Source of the DNA: Plicaturopsis crispa FD-325 SS-3
Taxonomy: Eukaryota; Basidiomycota; Agaricomycetes; Amylocorticiales; Amylocorticiaceae
Length of the DNA: 64,000 bases
Assembly (NCBI GenBank): GCA_000827205.1
Contig: KN832561.1
Coordinates: forward strand, 159,170 to 223,169
Reading direction: 5' to 3'
Shown: positions 17,970-57,699 of the stretch, piece after piece
Layout: the number at the start of each line of letters is the position of its first letter
Position numbering within the stretch: position 1 is the first letter of the stretch
The notes under the pieces: model-generated
Database searches by the model: none
What the model saw: only the letters and a program-made list of their open reading frames with translations
What the model was told of the DNA's origin: nothing
Position numbers and translations under genes: made by a program

Positions 17970-20148
17970 ATGTCGCAACTCACAGGAGGAATCTGCAAAC
18001 GTCTTAACGAGGCCAACGCCGACGACCAGTCGCTGTTCAACTCGGAACATACGGTCCAGTTTCTCTCCATCAAGAAGGTCACACCAACCACCTCCAATAC
18101 GAGCGCGTCTGTCGACAGATATCGTATCATCATTTCAGATGGCACACACTTTCTCCAGGCGATGCTTGCGACACAGCTAAACCACCTAGTCGACGAAAAC
18201 GCGATCGGGAAGAACACTATCGCCGTCATAGAGAAACTGACGTGCAATTTCGTCCAGGAAAAACGGTGCGTCTGCTCGCAGCTGTAGATATGCGCAATGT
18301 ACTCACTTGATATCGGAAGCTTGATCATCATACTCGCTCTTCGCGTGGTCCAAAAGGACGCGGAGAAGATTGGTGAGCCTGTTGGCGCCATCGCGCCCTC
18401 AGTAGCCGAGCAGAACGGCCAGAACGGCACAGCGCCTCCCATTGCTGGCCCTGCCGCAGCTACTTCATCCACGGCTGCACCAGCTAAACAGGCTGCACGT
18501 GCACAAGGGAAGGGCGGACGACCAAATTCTATCTATCCCATCGAGGGACTGAGCCCCTACCAGAACAACTGGACGATCAAGGCGCGCGTCACACAGAAAT
18601 CGGAAATCAAGACATGGTCGAATCAGCGAGGCGAGGGCAAATTGTTCAATGTGACGTTAATGGACGAGTCCGGAGAGATTCGGGCAACGGGTTTTAACGC
18701 CGCCGTGGACGAGCTATACGACAAGCTCGAGGAGGGCAAGGTGTACTTCATATCGAAAGCCAAAGTGAACTTGGCGAAGAAGAAATTCTCGAACTTGGCG
18801 AACGACTACGAGCTCGGGTTGGAGCGTTCCAGCGAGGTTGAAGAAGTGAGCTTCAGTCCAGTCTTCCTACCGAATCGTATTGATGTGTGCATAGTGCCAC
18901 GAAACGACAAACGTACCGATGGTGAAGTATTCCTTCGTCACCCTCTCTGGCTTGGAAGAGATTGCGAAGGATTCTACTTGTGGTACGTTAGCTTGTCGGT
19001 GTTCTCGTGCCCCAGCTACCTAACGCATCTCAACAGACATCATCGCCGTTGTGAAAGAAGCTGGTCCTGCCACAGAATTTACGTCGAAGATGAACAAGCA
19101 GGTACATTGAAAAATTTGAGCCGTAGCAACAAGCCCACTAATTGGCGTGCTCGACACTAGCTCCTCAAACGTGAATTGACTCTGGTAGACAAGTCTGGCT
19201 TTTCCGTCCGCATGACATTGTGGGGGAAACAGGCAGAGAGCTGGAACGCCGATGACTCTCCCATCATTGCCGTGAAAGGCGCCCGCGTCTCGGATTTTGC
19301 AGGTAGGTACCGCGTCTCTTGAATCGTTCGACACCTCTGACGGTTAGCATAGGGCGTTCACTCTCCCTAAGCATGTCCAGCACCCTCACCGTCAACCCTG
19401 ACATCGAGGAGGCGCATGTACTCCGCGGTTGGTACGACGGCTTCGGCGCGCAGCAGTCTTTCCAGGCGCACACATCCACTGGCACTGGCGGCACGCAGGG
19501 CGGATTCAACCGCGCCGAGCTGCGCAACATCACGGAGGTGAAGGAGCTGCAGCTCGGCATGAGCGACAAGGTCGACTACTTCAGCACGCGCGCGACGGTG
19601 ATGCACATCAAGGCGGACAACATCGCGTACCCCGCGTGCCCGACGGAGAAGTGCAACAAGAAGATGACGCAGATGAACGACGGCTGGCGCTGCGAAAAGT
19701 GCGACCGCACCTTCCCGAAGCCGCAGTACCGCTACTTGATCTCCATGGCCGTCGCGGACTGGTCCGGCCAGATGTGGCTGCAGGGGTTCAACGATGCTGG
19801 TGTCACGGTGATCGGGCGGACTGCCGACGAGCTCCTGGAAATAAGGGTGCGCATAACGTTGCTGGCGCACTGCACACGCATAAACTGACCCGTTCATTAG
19901 GACCGTGATGAGGCGGAATTTAACACCATCATCCAGAAGGCGAACTGTTCCACGTTCAACTTCGCATGCCGCGCGAAACAGGATACTTACAATGTATGGG
20001 CTCTGCTTCCCGCCTTACTGCCTTGGCTGACGGTGTGCTCTAGGATCAAACCCGCGTCCGCTATGGCATCCAAGATGTCAGGCCCATCGACTATCATGAG
20101 GAGGCGGTCAACCTGCTGGCCCTGCTTCGCTCGCCGTGGGCGCAGTGA
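17970..20148 (+). CDS. RFA1: Replication protein A large subunit (RPA70)
   Basis: Main single-stranded-DNA-binding subunit of the RPA trimer, used in replication, repair and recombination. The start [19 protein letters not shown] opens the N-terminal OB fold ([20 protein letters not shown]). A Pro/Ala linker leads to [20 protein letters not shown] (start of DBD-A) and [20 protein letters not shown], the typical RPA70 DBD-A core. DBD-B follows ([20 protein letters not shown]). DBD-C carries its zinc ribbon, [19 protein letters not shown] followed by EKC, with [20 protein letters not shown] after it. The end is [12 protein letters not shown]. About eight short introns; length close to the usual 600-620 residues. 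Convergent with the Nudix gene, 185 bp apart. Confidence 0.96.
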
Positions 20149-48340: not shown

Positions 48341-51300
48341 TTAGATAGTATCCATAAGTTGACTCGATACAGCTCGATACAGCGACCTCGCACCCTCGGT
48401 AGGCACATAGCCAGTCACGGCCCCCAGAACCATGGATTCCACCTTCCGTGGAGGCATGGTCCTCACCATCTCGCCAGCGAGGGTATGAATAGCCTCTGCA
48501 GCAATAGCCATCCTCTCATCCATAGAAAACGGGACAAAGGGAAGAACAGTCGTCACTCGCGACAGCAGCGACGCCTAGAAACGTATTTCGTTAGCACGTA
48601 CGACAACGACGTAACAGATAATGTCTTACTCCTAGACGCTTGGAGACCCGTGGTCGCAGCAGGCCCATCAGGTCTACATACTCCTCGCGGGACATGAGCT
48701 CGTCGCGGTTTGGCCGTTCAGCGTGGTGCTCGAAGACCAGGTCGTGGCCGACATTGGAAGTGCCGAGCCATACCACATTGCGTACGTCAATATGGCGACT
48801 ACCAGCTTCAGGAGAGCAACGTCCTGTGATCAAGATGTCAGCAAACCTGAGAGCTTTGTAAAGCACCGTATTCCTGACCTAATTCCCAGGGCATAAGCAA
48901 TGAGCATAGTGTCTTTTCGTCCTCGACTTTCTCGATCTCCTGGAATGTATATTTAGCAAAGCAAGCAGTGGTAAAAAAAAGGCTGCGACATACATCGAGA
49001 ACGACGACACATCGCTTGCCCTCGTTTTCCTTCAGAAATTCCGCTAATGTGAGTTTTGAAGGCTCCTACGAGAACATCAGACGAGCGTCGAAAGTACAGG
49101 CAGTGGAAAACGTACTTCATAAGGGCTCATAGAATAAGATTGCCATAAATCGTTATTGGATCGTAACGTCGTCATATTTACCGTGTGGGTGGGTACGTCA
49201 AGGAGATGGCCGACTAAGATAAAATGGGTTAGAGAAGACGGGTAGCATACTATGATCAGGACTTACACTTTCGAGCCAGAAGACTCTTGCCGTGTCCGCT
49301 AGGACCTGCAAAGCCATCAGGAGGCTGAACCTTCAAGCATGATAAGATATAGACTCACCGCAAAACAAGACAACGATAGGCGCTATCGAAAGCTTCTGGG
49401 AGTGCATACTCAAAACCCGGAACAGTTGCTCGATCGCGCGGTCTTGACCGATGAGATCATACCGCAACCGCGTCAATGGCCGGAAGAACGAGCGGTGAAT
49501 CAGAGCAGACGTCCGGCGAGTGTGTGGCGCGTCCGCGCGGGCAACATAATACCGCGTCGCCGGGTCCATTCCTTCCAGCATTGTTGGGGGCGGAGGCGTT
49601 GGCGTGGGGGAGCCGTCTCCGTCATTGCTGCCCAGTCTCGAATCGCTCCGTGGTGGATTGTGCTCTGGGTTCTTCAGCGCAGAAGGATCCGCACCATAGG
49701 CCAGCAGAGCTTTCACGATCTCCATCTTGTGCGTCAGTTGGTCGTTTGTCAGTGTGAACGCTAGTGCCGATTGGGGGCCGACTTGGTCATTGGGGCCTGC
49801 CTCTCCGCTTTCCAGTACCCGGCGAACCTGTTCGGGATCATCGCTGGCGATGGCGAACATGAGCGTCGGGCGAGGAGTTGCGATGGCATGCACAGGAGAA
49901 TGCAAGACGGAGGTTGGGCGGGTAGAAGGTGCGGTATGGAGGACGGGACGACATATAGTTGTCTCGTCGTAGGCAAGCCCTTGGAAATCTTCGTCGTCCG
50001 AATCGTCATCACCGCCCCATACTGGCTCTGAAAGCCTGCTGGAAGCCCGACGAGAAAACCGTTCCGCGTACGAGAACCGACTGTTGCGGACAGAGGAGCG
50101 GACAGAGGAGGAATCCCGCCACGACTGGGAATGTGATATAGGTGCACTTTGCGGTTCGTCGCTTGGATCCGGCAGATTTGTTAGGTGGTCACCGTTAGTA
50201 TCCGACCCGAAGAATAAAGGAGAAATGGTGCGAGCGGGAACGAGGGTATTGCGAACGTGTTCGGGTATGGTTGATGGATGTGCAGAAGAAAGCTAGATGA
50301 TATGCATAAGAATTGTGCAATGCCCATGATATTTTCACCACTTACCAAAGGATTATTTGATAGAGAATAGCCTGATGATACACTTGTAGCGGACGACATG
50401 TAAAACCGTTTGGAAAGATCTAATGTTGAATCAGTGACCTTTGCCTATCGACGAGAAGCGTTTAGCCCATACCTGGCTTATAGCTAATGCTGGATGGACG
50501 ACTAGATAACATTGGAGAAGATGCAGTTACGAATGCAGATTGTGATGATGGTGAAGAGGAATCTAAAATGGATGACTATTGGGTTGTGAAATTGTCAGTC
50601 GCCAGACGTGCAGTTTGCGCGACAAAAGGACTCACAAGGCGAAGTGGCTTCAGCCGTCGAGCGGCTGAAGTTGAGGGTGAATGTGGTCGATGCGACTCGT
50701 GGGTATTCCCATTACTAGGGGAGCCAGAACGGGAGGTGGTGGAAGGATTTAAAGGACTGGAAGCGCGAGACCTAGTCGAAGGTGAGAAGTCGGTGGCGAC
50801 AGCGGGTCTCGTACGAGACGACGATGGTGGGATACTCTGAGAGCTACGATTAGAAAGCAGTGGCGAGTTCTGAACGTGGCCCTGAAATACGATAGATGGA
50901 TAAGTAATTATCCATCCAACTAACGCGGCAAAGAAAACCAACTCACAAATGTGGTAGAACGTCTGAACCCAAACGGCACCTTCGTCGATGGCTCACTATC
51001 TACCGGAGACTTTGCAGGCGCTGCTGCTGTGATGGGCGAGCGACCGCGAGATGATGCAGATAGCGGAGTCCTCGGAGACGCAAGGGATACCGGGCGTGAA
51101 CTATTCGACTCAGTCGCAATGATCGTGCCAGTGCGTCCTCGAGGTAAGGGAGGCGGCGTGAAGACTCGCTCATGGTCTCCAGATGATCCTGCTGAATGCA
51201 GGCGACGATGCTGCTCGGTGGGAGTCGGCACAATGGTCCCAGACCGTTCACGATTGAATGGCGGCGGTGTGAATACACGTGCACGCGCACTGCCGGGTGT

Positions 51301-54300
51301 CACGGTAGGGCTGGGGGCCCGCGATGTAGATGGAAGCAAAGGCGTTCGCGCACCCGCGGTCGATTCTGGTGAAAATACCGATGGGTTGGGTGTTCGACGT
51401 TGATCGGGAGATACAACCACGGAAACGTCTGGCTGCGCAACTGGTGAATCGTTGCCGTCAAATATGCTATTCAGAATGTCGTAGCTTTCATTTGACGATC
51501 CCTCAGGCTCAACGGCCTCAGTATCTTCGGCTTCGAGCGTTAAATCCGGATCATGCGATGCGACGTATGACGGATAGGCTGCGGAAGTTGACGGAGACGA
51601 TCTGCGGGATTGGAGGCTGCGTGGTCGAATGTCGTAGCTTTCATTTGATGATCCCTTGGACTCGACAGCCCCAGCGTCTTCAGCTTCGAGCGTCAAATTC
51701 GGATCACGCGACGCGACGTATGGTGGATAGGCTGGAATGGAAGTTGACGTAGACGACTTGCGCGATTGCCGGCTACGCGGTCGCGAAGGCGGCGACGATT
51801 GCAACCGCGGACTCTCTTCACGACCTGAATCCAGGAAGGCCAAGCCACCTGCACCCTTGGACAATCTCTGCGACAGCTCCGAGAGGGCCCTGGAGAATTT
51901 GTCCGTGGCATCCTCAGAGTGGAAAGACTCATCGGGGTCGACGGAATCGTCTGTAGGGTGCGCTAGGTGAGAGATTGCGGAGTCGACCAAGTCTACGGAT
52001 TCGTGCGCAGGTGTTGCCTGAACCTTGTTGGCGTCGGCGCAGTGAAACGTGTCGTCTGGATCTGCCTCCTTCTCGTCCTCCTCATCCTCCTCCTCTAGGT
52101 CGGAATACGAAGTGTACAAAGAGACCAGCGTGTCTCGCTCATCTCGAGGAGACGATGCCGAGAAATCAGCTTGTCGGATGGTAGGGTCTGCAGAGGACAG
52201 AAGCTCCGGAGAATTCGGCGCCTCCTCGTCAACGATCATCTCTAGCATAGTAGGCATTGACGGTTCAGAGCCATCGTCTGTGACCGCCGATATTGTGAGC
52301 TCTGACACGGCACGCTCTCGCTTGACAAGTGCGGCTGTCATGACTTCGTAACTGAGATGTCGGGCAGACGATGTCATCGAAGATGGTGACCCCTGGGAAT
52401 GGCTGGTAGGCGGTAAGGGGAAGAGGAGGCGGGATAGGTCTGGGTCTGTATCGTCGTCAGCAGACGCATCGGTGGTCATCGTGTTGTCAAATGAATTCGC
52501 CGTCACGTCGCCCTCATACTCTTCCATCGACTCGTCAGCATCGACGCGGCTTGCGGGAAGCAGTAAACGGGACACGTCCATGTTTGTGTCGTTCTCGTCG
52601 AAAGACGCGTCCTGAGCCACACTACTGTCCAATACATCATCTTCAAAGTCCTCGGTAGACGGGTCGTCATTGTGATGAAGAGGAGGATGCGACTTGTCAG
52701 GGATGGCGGTAGATGCATCTGTAGCTATCCCGACGTCTAGAGGGTCAACGCTCACAGCGCTGTCGTAATTTTGTATGACGCGATCGGAGGGGAAAATGAA
52801 TCGGGATAGGTGGGGATTGTCATCGGAGGTATACCCTGCTGCTCTATTGTCAGATGTGTCTGGGCTGATCTCAATGCCAGAATCATCGAACAAGGACTTG
52901 GCATTGGCAGCGACGGGTGGGTCAGAAGGCTCGGAGAGGCTGTGAGCTGGGCCGCCCGCAACCACGACGCCAGCGTCAAAGGTTTCCGGAGACACGTGGT
53001 CTACAGAATTTTCGACTGCTTGGTTGGTGTCGAGCTCGTGAACAGATGCATTTGATGCTTCCGCAAGAGTCGTGACAGTGTCATCCTCTTGCGAAGAATC
53101 TTCACCCCCGTCCTCGGATTCAAGCGAGTAGTGCTCAGGTTCGCCCAAGTCTGAGTCGAGATCTGAGTATTGCTTTCCAGAACCGGGGGTGGGTGTGACG
53201 TTCTCCCCATCAGCAGAATTACCAGGTGCAGCACCTGTTATAGGTGTAAAAAAGGGCGGCGGGTGGGATTGCACATGAAATGCGCCCAACCGTGGCGACA
53301 GTATCCTCACAGCAGGTGAGCCAAACGGCGACGCGAGCAGGTCGAAAGTCGAAGACCGATGTGGATTTTGGGTAGGTGGAGACATGCGAAATGGGGTGGG
53401 CCCGGTCCAGCTGTCTGCGTAGCCGGAGTCAATTGAATCCTCGCGACGTAGCCCAGATTCGCAGTAGTCGCGCGAAAAGTTGCGCAAGGGTGCCGGAGAC
53501 ATCTCCACGGGGGACAGAAACTCAGCATATGCATGCTCATTGCCGACTGGGGAGGATGGACCGTGTTCGGCAATTGGTTCCAGGACCGGATGAACAGTAT
53601 CCACGGGCTCGGCCTCTTCAGAGGTATACGCGGTGGGACCGGAGAATAAAGGCGAGTAGAGGGCAGTGTAATATTGTGTGGTATCGTCGTCGTCGTCGTG
53701 CGAAGGGAAAAGAGTGTCTGAGTTAGCACTGTCGGGGGCATCGTTTTCGTCGGCAGCGGGGAATATGATGCTGTTCGTTGTCTCGTCGTCGTCTTCGCTA
53801 TCGAATACGGACGACGAAACACCAAGTACGCTATCCGTCGACTCGGTGGAATGACGGCGGCCGTAGTGCTCCAAGAATGACGAAAACCCTTCGACCATAG
53901 TCGATTCCTCCCCGTCCTCGACGAGTGTCTCTGAGTTCTCCACGGCAGAATGCAGCTCATCTTCCTCCTCCTCGTCCTCCTCGTCCGAACTAATCACGTC
54001 GCCCAGCGCCATGAGTAGCCCAGACATGCGTGGGGAACGAGGCGACGAGCGAAATGAGCTCGCGGGCGAGTTAACCGTCACCAAAGGCACATTGTCCATC
54101 TCTTTGTGAGGCAGGGTGTAGGATGAGATGGACGTGTTCTCGTGGTCCGCGTATGCGGCCGCGAACGCATCTGCCGAGGTTGTTGCCTTGACATTATGGA
54201 GGAAATTACACGAGTCCGAGAACAGACAACGGCCCTTGGAGTAGAACGGACACGGTTTTGCTGGCAAGTTTCGACGCGTCAGTAGGTTAGAGAAGGTCCC

Positions 54301-54351
54301 AAAGACAAGCGGCGCACTCTTAATTCTCCATGGCGGTTCAGAGGATGCCAT
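48341..54351 (-). CDS. CCCH zinc finger - ankyrin - ClpB-D2-like AAA+ fusion protein
   Basis: One start (MASSEPPWRIKSAPLVFGTF) and a chain of exons in compatible phase give a protein of roughly 1,900 residues. A CCCH finger lies at residues 34-52 (C-x7-C-x5-C-x3-H). A very long Asp/Glu/Ser-rich, probably disordered region follows, with a tandem 51-residue repeat. Pro/Ser linkers lead to two ankyrin-like repeats (TLMFAIASDDPEQVRRVLES, KMEIVKALLAYGADPSAL). The AAA+ module has DLIGQDRAIEQLFRVLSMH, Walker A GPSGHGKS, Walker B RCVVVLDEIEK, VVWLGTSNVG and sensor-2-like EGARSLYRAV. The ankyrin plus single ClpB-type domain layout resembles animal CLPB/SKD3. The alternative is two genes, 48341-50399 and about 50576-54351, but the junction SYKPDLSKRFYMSSATS splices in phase. 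Confidence 0.72.
51478..51783 (-). repeat. Two-unit tandem repeat inside the CCCH-AAA+ gene
   Basis: Two adjacent units of 153 bp (51478-51630 and 51631-51783), an exact multiple of three. Each encodes SNESYDI..., RSRQSR or RSLQSR, YVASRDP or YVASHDP, and LTLEAED. Units differ at a modest number of bases, so the duplication is fairly recent. Confidence 0.8.
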
Positions 54352-54490
54352 CTGCTACATCGAATTCGACGGTAAAAGGCAGAGTTCAAGTTCAACATAC
54401 GCGACCTGTAGGCGCTTATTTTGGCCAAGTCAACTTCCGAACTCCGACATCACAGCACCATAGCCTCCGCGTCCGTCTCCGAGATCGCAA
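54352..54490. promoter_or_regulatory. Compact divergent promoter
   Basis: A 139-bp space between the CCCH-AAA+ gene and the glutaredoxin-like gene. No TATA box was seen on either strand. Confidence 0.4.
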
Positions 54491-54904
54491 ATGTCTCGTT
54501 TGCCTCGTATACCGCGTCTAACTCTATTCTCTGGACCAAACTGTTCCCTCTGCGACGTGAGTGCCTTGCTTTTCTTACATGCGAGGACCCACAATTTTTC
54601 TTGTGTGTGTACAGACGGCCAAAGCGGAATTGGCGAGGGTCAGGCAATCTGTAAGTGCCCCCCAAAATGCCAACGGAGATATCTCAAACTGACGGAGGGA
54701 TAATCGACGAATGCCTACCATCAGCGCTCGTTCGAGCTGGAGACCATCAACATCCAGGATCAGGGTCAGGAGAAGTGGAAGAAGAAATATGTGTATTGGA
54801 TCCCCGCTCTGCACCTCGACGGCAAGGAGGTTGCGAAAGGTCGCTGGGACGCTTCAGCTGTGATTCAAGCCTTGGACACCTGGGAGAAGAGTGCGGGAAA
54901 ATGA
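54491..54904 (+). CDS. Glutaredoxin-like protein (DUF836, YDR286C type)
   Basis: Small thioredoxin-fold protein. Three exons give about 90 residues: MSRLPRIPRLTLFSGPNCSL, CDTAKAELARVRQS, RSFELETINIQDQGQEKWKK, YWIPALHLDGKEVAKGRWD, ending TWEKSAGK. The CxxC redox pair is in NCSLC, near the start of the first helix as in glutaredoxins, with a cis-Pro in IPALHLDG. The small size is normal for this family. Its TGA stop (54902-54904) overlaps the ATG of the next gene. The physiological substrate is unknown. Confidence 0.88.
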
Positions 54905-55953
54905 CGGCCGTAGAGCTGGGGGACGCCACGGATCCCTGTTTTGTCGTTGACACGGCGCCTGCCCATCGCTCGCAATGGACTTTCTGGTCGTACTATGATC
55001 GCGATGCTGATTCAATCATAGGTGATCAAGACACCGACGACGACGACATTGACGGCGCTTACGAGCGACGTTGCTTTAATTGTGGCGCCTCAGATCACGC
55101 CGTCTCCGCCTGTCCTACACCAAGGAACTCACAACTCATCTCCCTCTCACGTCAACTCTTCGAGTTCTACCGCACAACCCCCACATCAAATCCCGAAAGG
55201 ATACATGTCGTAGAGGCATGGAAGCAGCAGCGACTTGACTGGCTCGATGAGTTTGACCCTGGAACTCTAAAAGGCACATTACTTCGTGAGGCCCTAGACT
55301 TGAGCGATGGTGAGCACAGCGGAGAATGGTTGCGGAACATTGCCCTCTGGGGATATCCGCGCGGCTGGATTGGCTACAAGGATCCGAGGGAGAGAGTTTA
55401 TCGGAGGATAGCATACGAGGACGCTGACATGCATGGTCCGGATGACGAGCAAGTCGAATTTCTCATCTTTGGCGACGAAGGCGAGGAGGAACGGGTTGTC
55501 TTGAAACCCCCACTGAGTGACGCACAGCCAGTCTCCGACACCTCGTCCGATTCGGATACCACCTCTGCCTCGGAGCGCTCTACCTCAGAGGCCGCCCCGG
55601 AGCCCTCCGAATCGCAGGCCGCCACCACGCCACCGCTACGACGATGGGCAGAATATCCACCCACATATTTCTCCTCTGCCCTACTCCCAGTATACAACGG
55701 CTATGCACTTCCGCCTCTTGAATCGGACAGCTTTACGAGTGACAGGAAAGCCTTATGGGGCCAGATAGCGAACGTTCCATTCTTGCCCAATGCAGCTCTT
55801 CCTGCAGCTCCGCCGCCGCCGCCGCCGCCGCCACCGGGAAGTCCGCCCCCACTACCTCCATCTCCCGGGACACCATTACTGCCGCCTGAGCCCCCTCAGG
55901 ATGGGCTCGCTGAGGATGCCGACGACGAAGTCGACATGGATATGTCTGATTAG
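54901..55953 (+). CDS. CCHC zinc-knuckle/PSP-domain protein (ZCCHC8-like)
   Basis: About 350 residues in a single exon. MTAVELGDATDPCFVVDTAP begins at the ATG that overlaps the upstream stop. A zinc knuckle CFNCGASDHAVSAC fits C-x2-C-x4-H-x4-C. The segment GEWLRNIALWGYPRGWIGYK fits the PSP motif of ZCCHC8 and SF3B2-type proteins, which takes part in nuclear RNA surveillance (NEXT) or spliceosome contacts. The C-terminus is Ser/Asp-rich, then a polyproline run encoded by CCG repeats near 55811-55835, then an acidic end DDEVDMDMSD. The frame stays open upstream to 54655, but that part overlays glutaredoxin exons and looks like a shadow, so 54901 is preferred. Confidence 0.8.
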   Translation: MTAVELGDATDPCFVVDTAPAHRSQWTFWSYYDRDADSIIGDQDTDDDDIDGAYERRCFNCGASDHAVSACPTPRNSQLISLSRQLFEFYRTTPTSNPERIHVVEAWKQQRLDWLDEFDPGTLKGTLLREALDLSDGEHSGEWLRNIALWGYPRGWIGYKDPRERVYRRIAYEDADMHGPDDEQVEFLIFGDEGEEERVVLKPPLSDAQPVSDTSSDSDTTSASERSTSEAAPEPSESQAATTPPLRRWAEYPPTYFSSALLPVYNGYALPPLESDSFTSDRKALWGQIANVPFLPNAALPAAPPPPPPPPPGSPPPLPPSPGTPLLPPEPPQDGLAEDADDEVDMDMSD

Positions 55954-56682: not shown

Positions 56683-57699
56683 ATGCAGACCATTTCAGAA
56701 AGCCCAATCATCGAGATACCCGATGTTATGCCGTTCAGTGAGTACATATTCGTCAGCTTCGTCCATACCAATCGTTTGACCTGCTCTCCAAAGCCAAGGG
56801 CGTGTTCCTGCCGCTGCTGGAGGCCAAACGAGCAGAGATCGAAAGCGTCCCACGGAAGACATTCAAGTTCGGCGGCCTGGACAGGAACCAGGTGAGCGCA
56901 CTTACACAATATATGATATTTCATGCCATCCTTACATGTTTTCCAGCTCGACGTGTATTACCCGTCCACCCACGGCAAAGCACCGGTGCTATTCTTCGTG
57001 TACGGTGGTGGCTATACCCACGGAGATCGCATCCTCCCTGACACGTCTTCCTTGGTATACGCCAACATAGGCTCGTATTACGCACGGCAAGGCTTCCTCA
57101 CCGTCATCGCCGACTACCGCCTCGTCCCCGGCGTCACCTATCCTGGTGCTTCCGAGGACGTCCGCGATGCCATCGTCTGGGTCATCGACAACGCCCAGAC
57201 TGTGGCGTCCGCCGACGTGCAGCCGGACCTGGAATCAATATTCCTGTACGGCCATTCCGCCGGCGCGTCGCACCTCGCGACGCTCCTGTTTGACGAGAAC
57301 ATCCTCGCATCATCCGCCGTGCTCTCCAAGCTCCGGGGCGTGATTTTGTCAGGCGGTCCGTACACATTCGGGCCCGGACCCTACCCGGAGTTCGTCACCC
57401 ACTACTACGGCGAAGAAACAGTCAAGCTAGAGCCGCTGGGGCTGGTGGTCGGGGCTTCGGACGCGCATATAAAAAAGCTCCCCGAAATCCTGCTTACCTG
57501 GGCGGAGCGTGAGCTCCGTGTAATCCAGCCTGCTATCGCCACTTTCAAGCCGGCGCTCGAGAAACGACGTGGGAAGCCGGTGGAAGAAATCATTGGAAAG
57601 GGTCACAACCATATCAGCATACCCATCTCTCCTGGAAGTGGTGAGGGGGAGGAGTACAGCGAAGACCTGGTTAGGTGGATGCGCGCCCGTCTGGTTTGA
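56683..57699 (+). CDS. Alpha/beta-hydrolase (esterase, HSL/BD-FAE type), apparent frameshift near N-terminus
   Basis: Cytosolic-type hydrolase of about 320 residues without a signal peptide. Start MQTISESPIIEIPDVMPFSE, then LRPYQSFDLLSKAKGVFLPL, RKTFKFGGLDRNQ, LDVYYPSTHGKAPVLFFVYG, oxyanion motif YGGGYTHGDR, FLTVIADYRLVPG, nucleophile GHSAGASHL, and the catalytic His in GKGHNHISIPIS. The C-terminal two thirds are one clean exon from about 56947, after an intron following DRNQ. Between YI at about 56747 and LRPYQ at 56757 the frame shifts by one and no intron of normal size fits. So the gene has a one-base deletion, or the sequence has an error. Confidence 0.82.

Follow-up and report, generated by a model that had tools for sequence, protein, structure and literature searches.

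The glutaredoxin-like gene and the open reading frame directly behind it, here called ORF2, share the four bases ATGA, and at this junction two coding frames meet and switch beyond chance. The window, a stretch of 64,000 nucleotides of Plicaturopsis crispa (C8:159170-223169, from a genome of 33.2 Mb in 49 contigs), places the TGA that ends the first gene at 54902-54904 and the ATG that begins the second at 54901-54903, as given in the initial annotation. The junction reads GAG AAG AGT GCG GGA AAA TGA in the glutaredoxin frame, and ORF2 opens in the -1 frame with ATG ACG GCC GTA (Table 1). Since the gap between the genes is nil, any full glutaredoxin mRNA includes the ORF2 start codon, and a separate ORF2 message would need to start inside the glutaredoxin gene; the earlier remark that ORF2 has no promoter space outside that gene is borne out, as is the 4-nt overlap. 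We tentatively read the locus as two separate head-to-tail genes carried, at least partly, on one message, from which ORF2 would be translated mainly through leaky scanning.

Table 1. Features around the glutaredoxin-like/ORF2 junction, in positions of the window.
Feature	Position	Strand	Remarks
Divergent gap, CCCH zinc-finger frame to glutaredoxin ATG, 139 nt	54352..54490		Presumed shared promoter and 5' UTR; putative promoter role
Glutaredoxin-like gene, three exons, 93 codons	54491..54904	+	CDS 54491-54556 + 54615-54650 + 54725-54904; both introns GT...AG
Glutaredoxin-like exon 1	54491..54556	+	ATG context TCGCAA|ATG, C at -3; CSLC motif; PF05768
Intron 1, 58 nt	54557..54614	+	Glutaredoxin frame free of stops; retention would leave ATG 54491 open to 55951, 462 codons
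Glutaredoxin-like exon 2	54615..54650	+	PF05768 match
Intron 2, 74 nt	54651..54724	+	If retained, stop at 54690
Glutaredoxin-like exon 3, including stop TGA 54902-54904	54725..54904	+	PF05768; coding signal in frame
Sole AUG between both starts in the spliced message	54789..54863	+	Out of frame, 24 codons, A at -3
GGGAAAA heptamer, slippery register, immediately 5' of TGA	54895..54901	+	Junction sequence
ATGA, ORF2 start and ORF1 stop	54901..54904	+	Sequence
ORF2, ZCCHC8-like protein, 350 codons, no intron	54901..55953	+	Open frame, ZCCHC8 match and coding model
ORF2 residues 56-158, ZCCHC8-aligned stretch: zinc knuckle and PSP-like region	55066..55374	+	Sequence match

Both the glutaredoxin-like gene and ORF2 look like real genes. 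The predicted glutaredoxin-like protein matches the PF05768 (DUF836) profile over residues 9-84 and profile positions 1-76 of 77 (E 4.5e-16; 59.4 bits, cut-off 26) as well as the PDB entry 1wjk (E 1.2e-6); a PF05768 search of its own genome returned this gene only, with no second copy. Residues 56-158 of ORF2 align with human ZCCHC8 chains in the PDB (7z4y_A, E 7.3e-7; 7s7b_B, 1.3e-6; 7z52_A, 3.6e-6), and the zinc knuckle is complete, with the spacing C-x2-C-x4-H-x4-C (C58, C61, H66, C71). The zf-CCHC profile reached 14.2 bits on ORF2, under its cut-off of 20.8, and the PSP domain profile (PF04046) had no ORF2 match at E <= 1; in the whole genome this profile gave a single match at E <= 10, at C8:465405-465542. 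Because the ZCCHC8 match includes the knuckle but both Pfam models stay below cut-off, the label "ZCCHC8-like" is used, and the ORF2 product is predicted to be a ZCCHC8-like, RNA-surveillance-type protein; by homology it may act as a scaffold of the NEXT complex that binds MTR4 and RBM7. The initial annotation had named a zinc-knuckle/PSP gene, a designation that agrees with the ZCCHC8 alignment over the knuckle and the PSP-like region but not with the PF04046 profile; its pairing of a redox protein with an RNA-surveillance-type protein is upheld by PF05768 on one side and the ZCCHC8 match on the other. A search of the genome for a second ORF2 copy found none, only ORF2 itself and one match at E 0.8. 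The next Met in ORF2 is residue 177, past the ZCCHC8-like part, and thus the ATG at 54901 is the only one in ORF2 that yields the conserved part.

The switch between frames was scored with a 3-periodic coding model whose training set comprised 56 frames totalling 60 kb, drawn from a 263-kb part of the same contig; the model was then retrained without ORF2. In the retrained model the best switch falls at 54897 (19.06 bits), 0.9 bits from the value for 54901 (18.18) and about 18 bits above the absence of any switch (0.30 or -6.69). With ORF2 among the training frames the corresponding scores are 20.95, 20.04, and -0.19 or -1.61; the result holds when ORF2 is omitted, at slightly lower scores. 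Over exon 3, the model without ORF2 gives the glutaredoxin frame +0.199 bits per codon and negative values to the other five frames (-0.216 for the ORF2 frame); over the first 150 bases of ORF2 it gives the ORF2 frame +0.116 and, again, negative values to the five others. Under the coding model the glutaredoxin frame shows no coding signal in exon 1 (66 nt) or exon 2 (36 nt); when ORF2 is divided into seven blocks of 150 bases, a different frame outscores its own in two. An upstream extension of ORF2, into the frame open from 54655, was considered and rejected on its negative score over exon 3 (-0.161, or -0.216 in the retrained model).

The letters ATGA are by themselves ordinary, since A precedes 593 of the 2692 TGAs that close frames of at least 30 codons in the 263 kb, and one third of the synonymous recodings of the glutaredoxin (n = 5000) end in ATGA. 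It is the meeting of two coding frames that the switch scores place beyond chance. At nine of the 593 sites in the 263 kb the ATG opens at least 350 codons; among these nine, only here do the 90 upstream nucleotides yield a clearly positive score in the ORF1 frame together with a negative one in the ORF2 frame. A scan of the 263 kb, made by a coding model with ORF2 in its training, looked for stop/ATG pairs that lie at offsets from -40 to +100 and are flanked on either side by coding signal; 16 pairs passed, one at offset -4 (this junction) and none at -1, the other 15 being unfiltered candidates. A uniform distribution over the offsets would lead to 0.11 expected pairs at each; offset -4 is favoured beforehand because TGA provides two of the three ATG letters. 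A single case cannot show selection for the overlap, and the overlap alone does not prove an unusual mechanism. The coding scan also listed a candidate close pair at 18285 (+) (C8:177454), in which a TAG is followed 9 nt behind by an ATG that opens 287 codons.

Under the tentatively favoured explanation, one message would arise from the 139-nt divergent gap, cover both genes at least in part, and probably continue beyond 55953. Some initiating ribosomes would skip the glutaredoxin AUG, meet one more AUG, and then initiate at 54901; ribosomes that have just terminated at the UGA may restart there as a minor addition. The first AUG has C at -3 and the second has A, confirming the favourable start context already ascribed to ORF2, a single AUG lies between them, and the + strand of the gap (54352-54490) contains no ATG. 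These start contexts and the scarcity of AUGs are compatible with leaky scanning; as a caveat, such marks are not rare, since 6 of the 22 crude starts compared have no purine at -3 and 41% of 5000 recodings have one or zero internal AUG. The intervening AUG at 54789, which itself has A at -3, speaks against leaky scanning. Green-algal bicistronic genes, which share the short 5' UTR, the less favourable first start context and the few intervening AUGs, are reported to be proven cases of leaky scanning; there the evidence is experimental and many spacers are longer, whereas here the marks are at chance level (PMC11291117). In yeast, CPA1 is reported to be reached behind its upstream frame by leaky scanning (PMC8573964).

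The two-gene message itself has reported counterparts, and the earlier statement that polycistronic transcripts occur in Agaricomycetes is corroborated by accounts for Plicaturopsis crispa with three other Agaricomycetes and for Ganoderma lingzhi. For Plicaturopsis crispa, 314 loci with read-through transcripts are reported, involving 717 of 9,073 transcribed loci with a mean gap of 364 nt (PMC4503453); for Ganoderma lingzhi, 1272 polycistronic loci with a mean gap of 434 bp (PMC11590231). This wide occurrence counts in favour of a shared message; the gaps in the described cases, and the reports that the genes of these fungal polycistronic transcripts are also transcribed alone (PMC4503453, PMC11590231), count against it. 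The reported units consist, like the present pair, of tandem genes, probably joined here on one message; they differ in their intergenic distances from the stop/start overlap described here, which is known from genome sequence alone (PMC4503453, PMC11590231). We count the junction as an extreme case of the known Agaricomycete two-gene units.

The reported solo transcription in Plicaturopsis (PMC4503453) accords with an alternative only slightly less likely than the favoured explanation, namely that ORF2 has its own capped messages starting within the glutaredoxin gene, so that the overlap would be a by-product of compaction and the two-gene message a read-through. Two ATTGG words (inverted CCAAT) at 54629 and 54795 would suit such internal starts, but this is about the number expected by chance in 600 nt. 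Neither a TATA-like word nor a run of 10 pyrimidines occurs in the interval 54352-54960, an absence that argues against internal starts with little weight, as the 139-nt gap equally lacks both. A comparison of poly(A) signals was uninformative: no AATAAA-like hexamer with at most one mismatch occurs in ORF2, in the 397 nt after ORF2, or in the 5' gap. If ORF2 has its own messages, the locus would be an ordinary example of a compact genome in which one gene harbours the promoter of the next. Leaky scanning and internal transcription start are each at least as likely as termination-reinitiation.

Coupled termination-reinitiation, in which ribosomes that finish the glutaredoxin at the UGA would restart on the overlapping AUG in the manner of victoriviruses, is possible without specific support at this locus, and we regard it as unlikely. 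The stop-to-start distance is zero, and AUGA is the reported victorivirus signal, functional in fungal cells (PMC6631646); the four bases are identical here, the ribosomes are likewise fungal, and two separate products would be expected in both systems. In contrast to the victorivirus signal, which according to the same source needs an H-type pseudoknot just upstream (PMC6631646), the junction has AUGA at its border but no such element above chance directly upstream: a simple pseudoknot scan of our own design, evaluated with single-base shuffles, found no candidate in the last 40 nt and, when extended to 60 nt, one at chance level that 47 of 200 shuffles equalled or bettered. Folds around the junction are ordinary (four z-scores: +0.88, +0.87, -0.10, +1.47), and ATGA is, as counted above, common by chance. 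The UGGGA motifs at 54845 and 54881, candidates for motif 1 of the calicivirus TURBS type that would pair with 18S rRNA, give no specific support; they follow from the protein sequence, with two observed against 2.1 expected in 5000 recodings. The initial annotation had taken this geometry as a sign of termination-reinitiation, which the ordinary folds, the pseudoknot scan and the protein-derived UGGGA motifs leave without specific evidence. It had also described the upstream ORF as short, at about 90 codons; the length is accurate (93 codons), but frames that permit classical reinitiation usually span, according to a review, fewer than 10 codons in yeast and fewer than 30 in mammals (PMC5972666), and since 93 codons are not short by that measure, only coupled, virus-like reinitiation would fit.

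Reported precedents for such coupling are of mixed bearing. Cellular cases are few in the review consulted (PMC5972666), and reinitiation by 80S ribosomes is reported to be inducible in yeast (PMC11952965). Fungal reinitiation after long frames has been reported with a short spacer: the IGG1/IGG6 spacer of Glarea lozoyensis likewise gives a fungal message a second frame downstream of a long one, but places it 9 bp after the stop, was optimised by its authors, and involves no overlap (PMC10352335). Still less probable is a stricter version in which the ZCCHC8-like protein would be obtainable solely from the spliced glutaredoxin message, by virus-like restarting at AUGA; joined forms would come by side routes, through retention of intron 1 or a -1 slip on GGGAAAA, and the junction would set the ratio of separate to joined products.

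Explanations that join the two frames into one product fare worse. A splice switch, by which the message with intron 1 spliced would give the glutaredoxin and the message with intron 1 retained a single 462-codon protein ending in the complete ORF2 sequence, draws on the uninterrupted frame (54491-55951) of the message that keeps the intron; the ORF2 frame across exon 3 is, however, open by chance in 16% of recodings and carries no coding signal there (the -0.161 or, with ORF2 omitted from training, -0.216 given above), and the long form would lose half of the glutaredoxin, which makes this a very improbable arrangement. Comparably slight is the chance that an assembly or sequencing indel in the short A run has split what is truly one fused gene: because ORF2 lies in the -1 frame, the loss or gain of one base at the junction could connect the two frames, and the assembly letters alone were examined; such an indel would need to coincide with the coding switch, the stop and the ATG, and the unbroken 1143-codon frame nearby speaks against many indels. 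Finally, a -1 frameshift on G GGA AAA ahead of the UGA, yielding a glutaredoxin-ZCCHC8-like fusion, is scarcely credible, even though the X XXY YYZ heptamer (54895-54901) is in register, the post-slip codon is the ORF2 ATG, and GGGAAAA is present in just 2.1% of 5000 synonymous recodings; the heptamer was noticed after the fact, no downstream stimulatory structure is evident (z +0.87 and +0.88; no pseudoknot candidate in 60 nt), and frameshifting needs no ATG at the switch point.

If both proteins come from one message, the locus would offer a compact native test of the route by which fungal ribosomes arrive at a second frame; as no spacer separates the genes, each mechanism predicts a different response to minor alterations of the first AUG, the stop and intron 1. 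A limited search of the open-licence literature found, among the papers listed, no description of a stop-start overlap between two nuclear fungal genes. Pattern searches in a collection of viral contigs returned no match for ORF2 and 21 for glutaredoxin exon 3, none of them confirmed, and in a collection of prokaryotic genome contigs nine for ORF2, again with none confirmed; these collections say nothing on conservation in fungi.

The gene pair is flanked on both sides by further coding sequence. Downstream, an exon of an alpha/beta hydrolase gene occupies 56923-57699 (+) (PF20434 BD-FAE, 66 bits). Upstream, the 1143-codon frame at 50920-54351 (-) runs divergently from the glutaredoxin-like gene, with 139 nt between the start codons, and close to its N-terminus one CCCH zinc finger is predicted (PF00642; 21.0 bits, cut-off 20.5); next to the ZCCHC8-like gene it would be another candidate RNA-binding gene.
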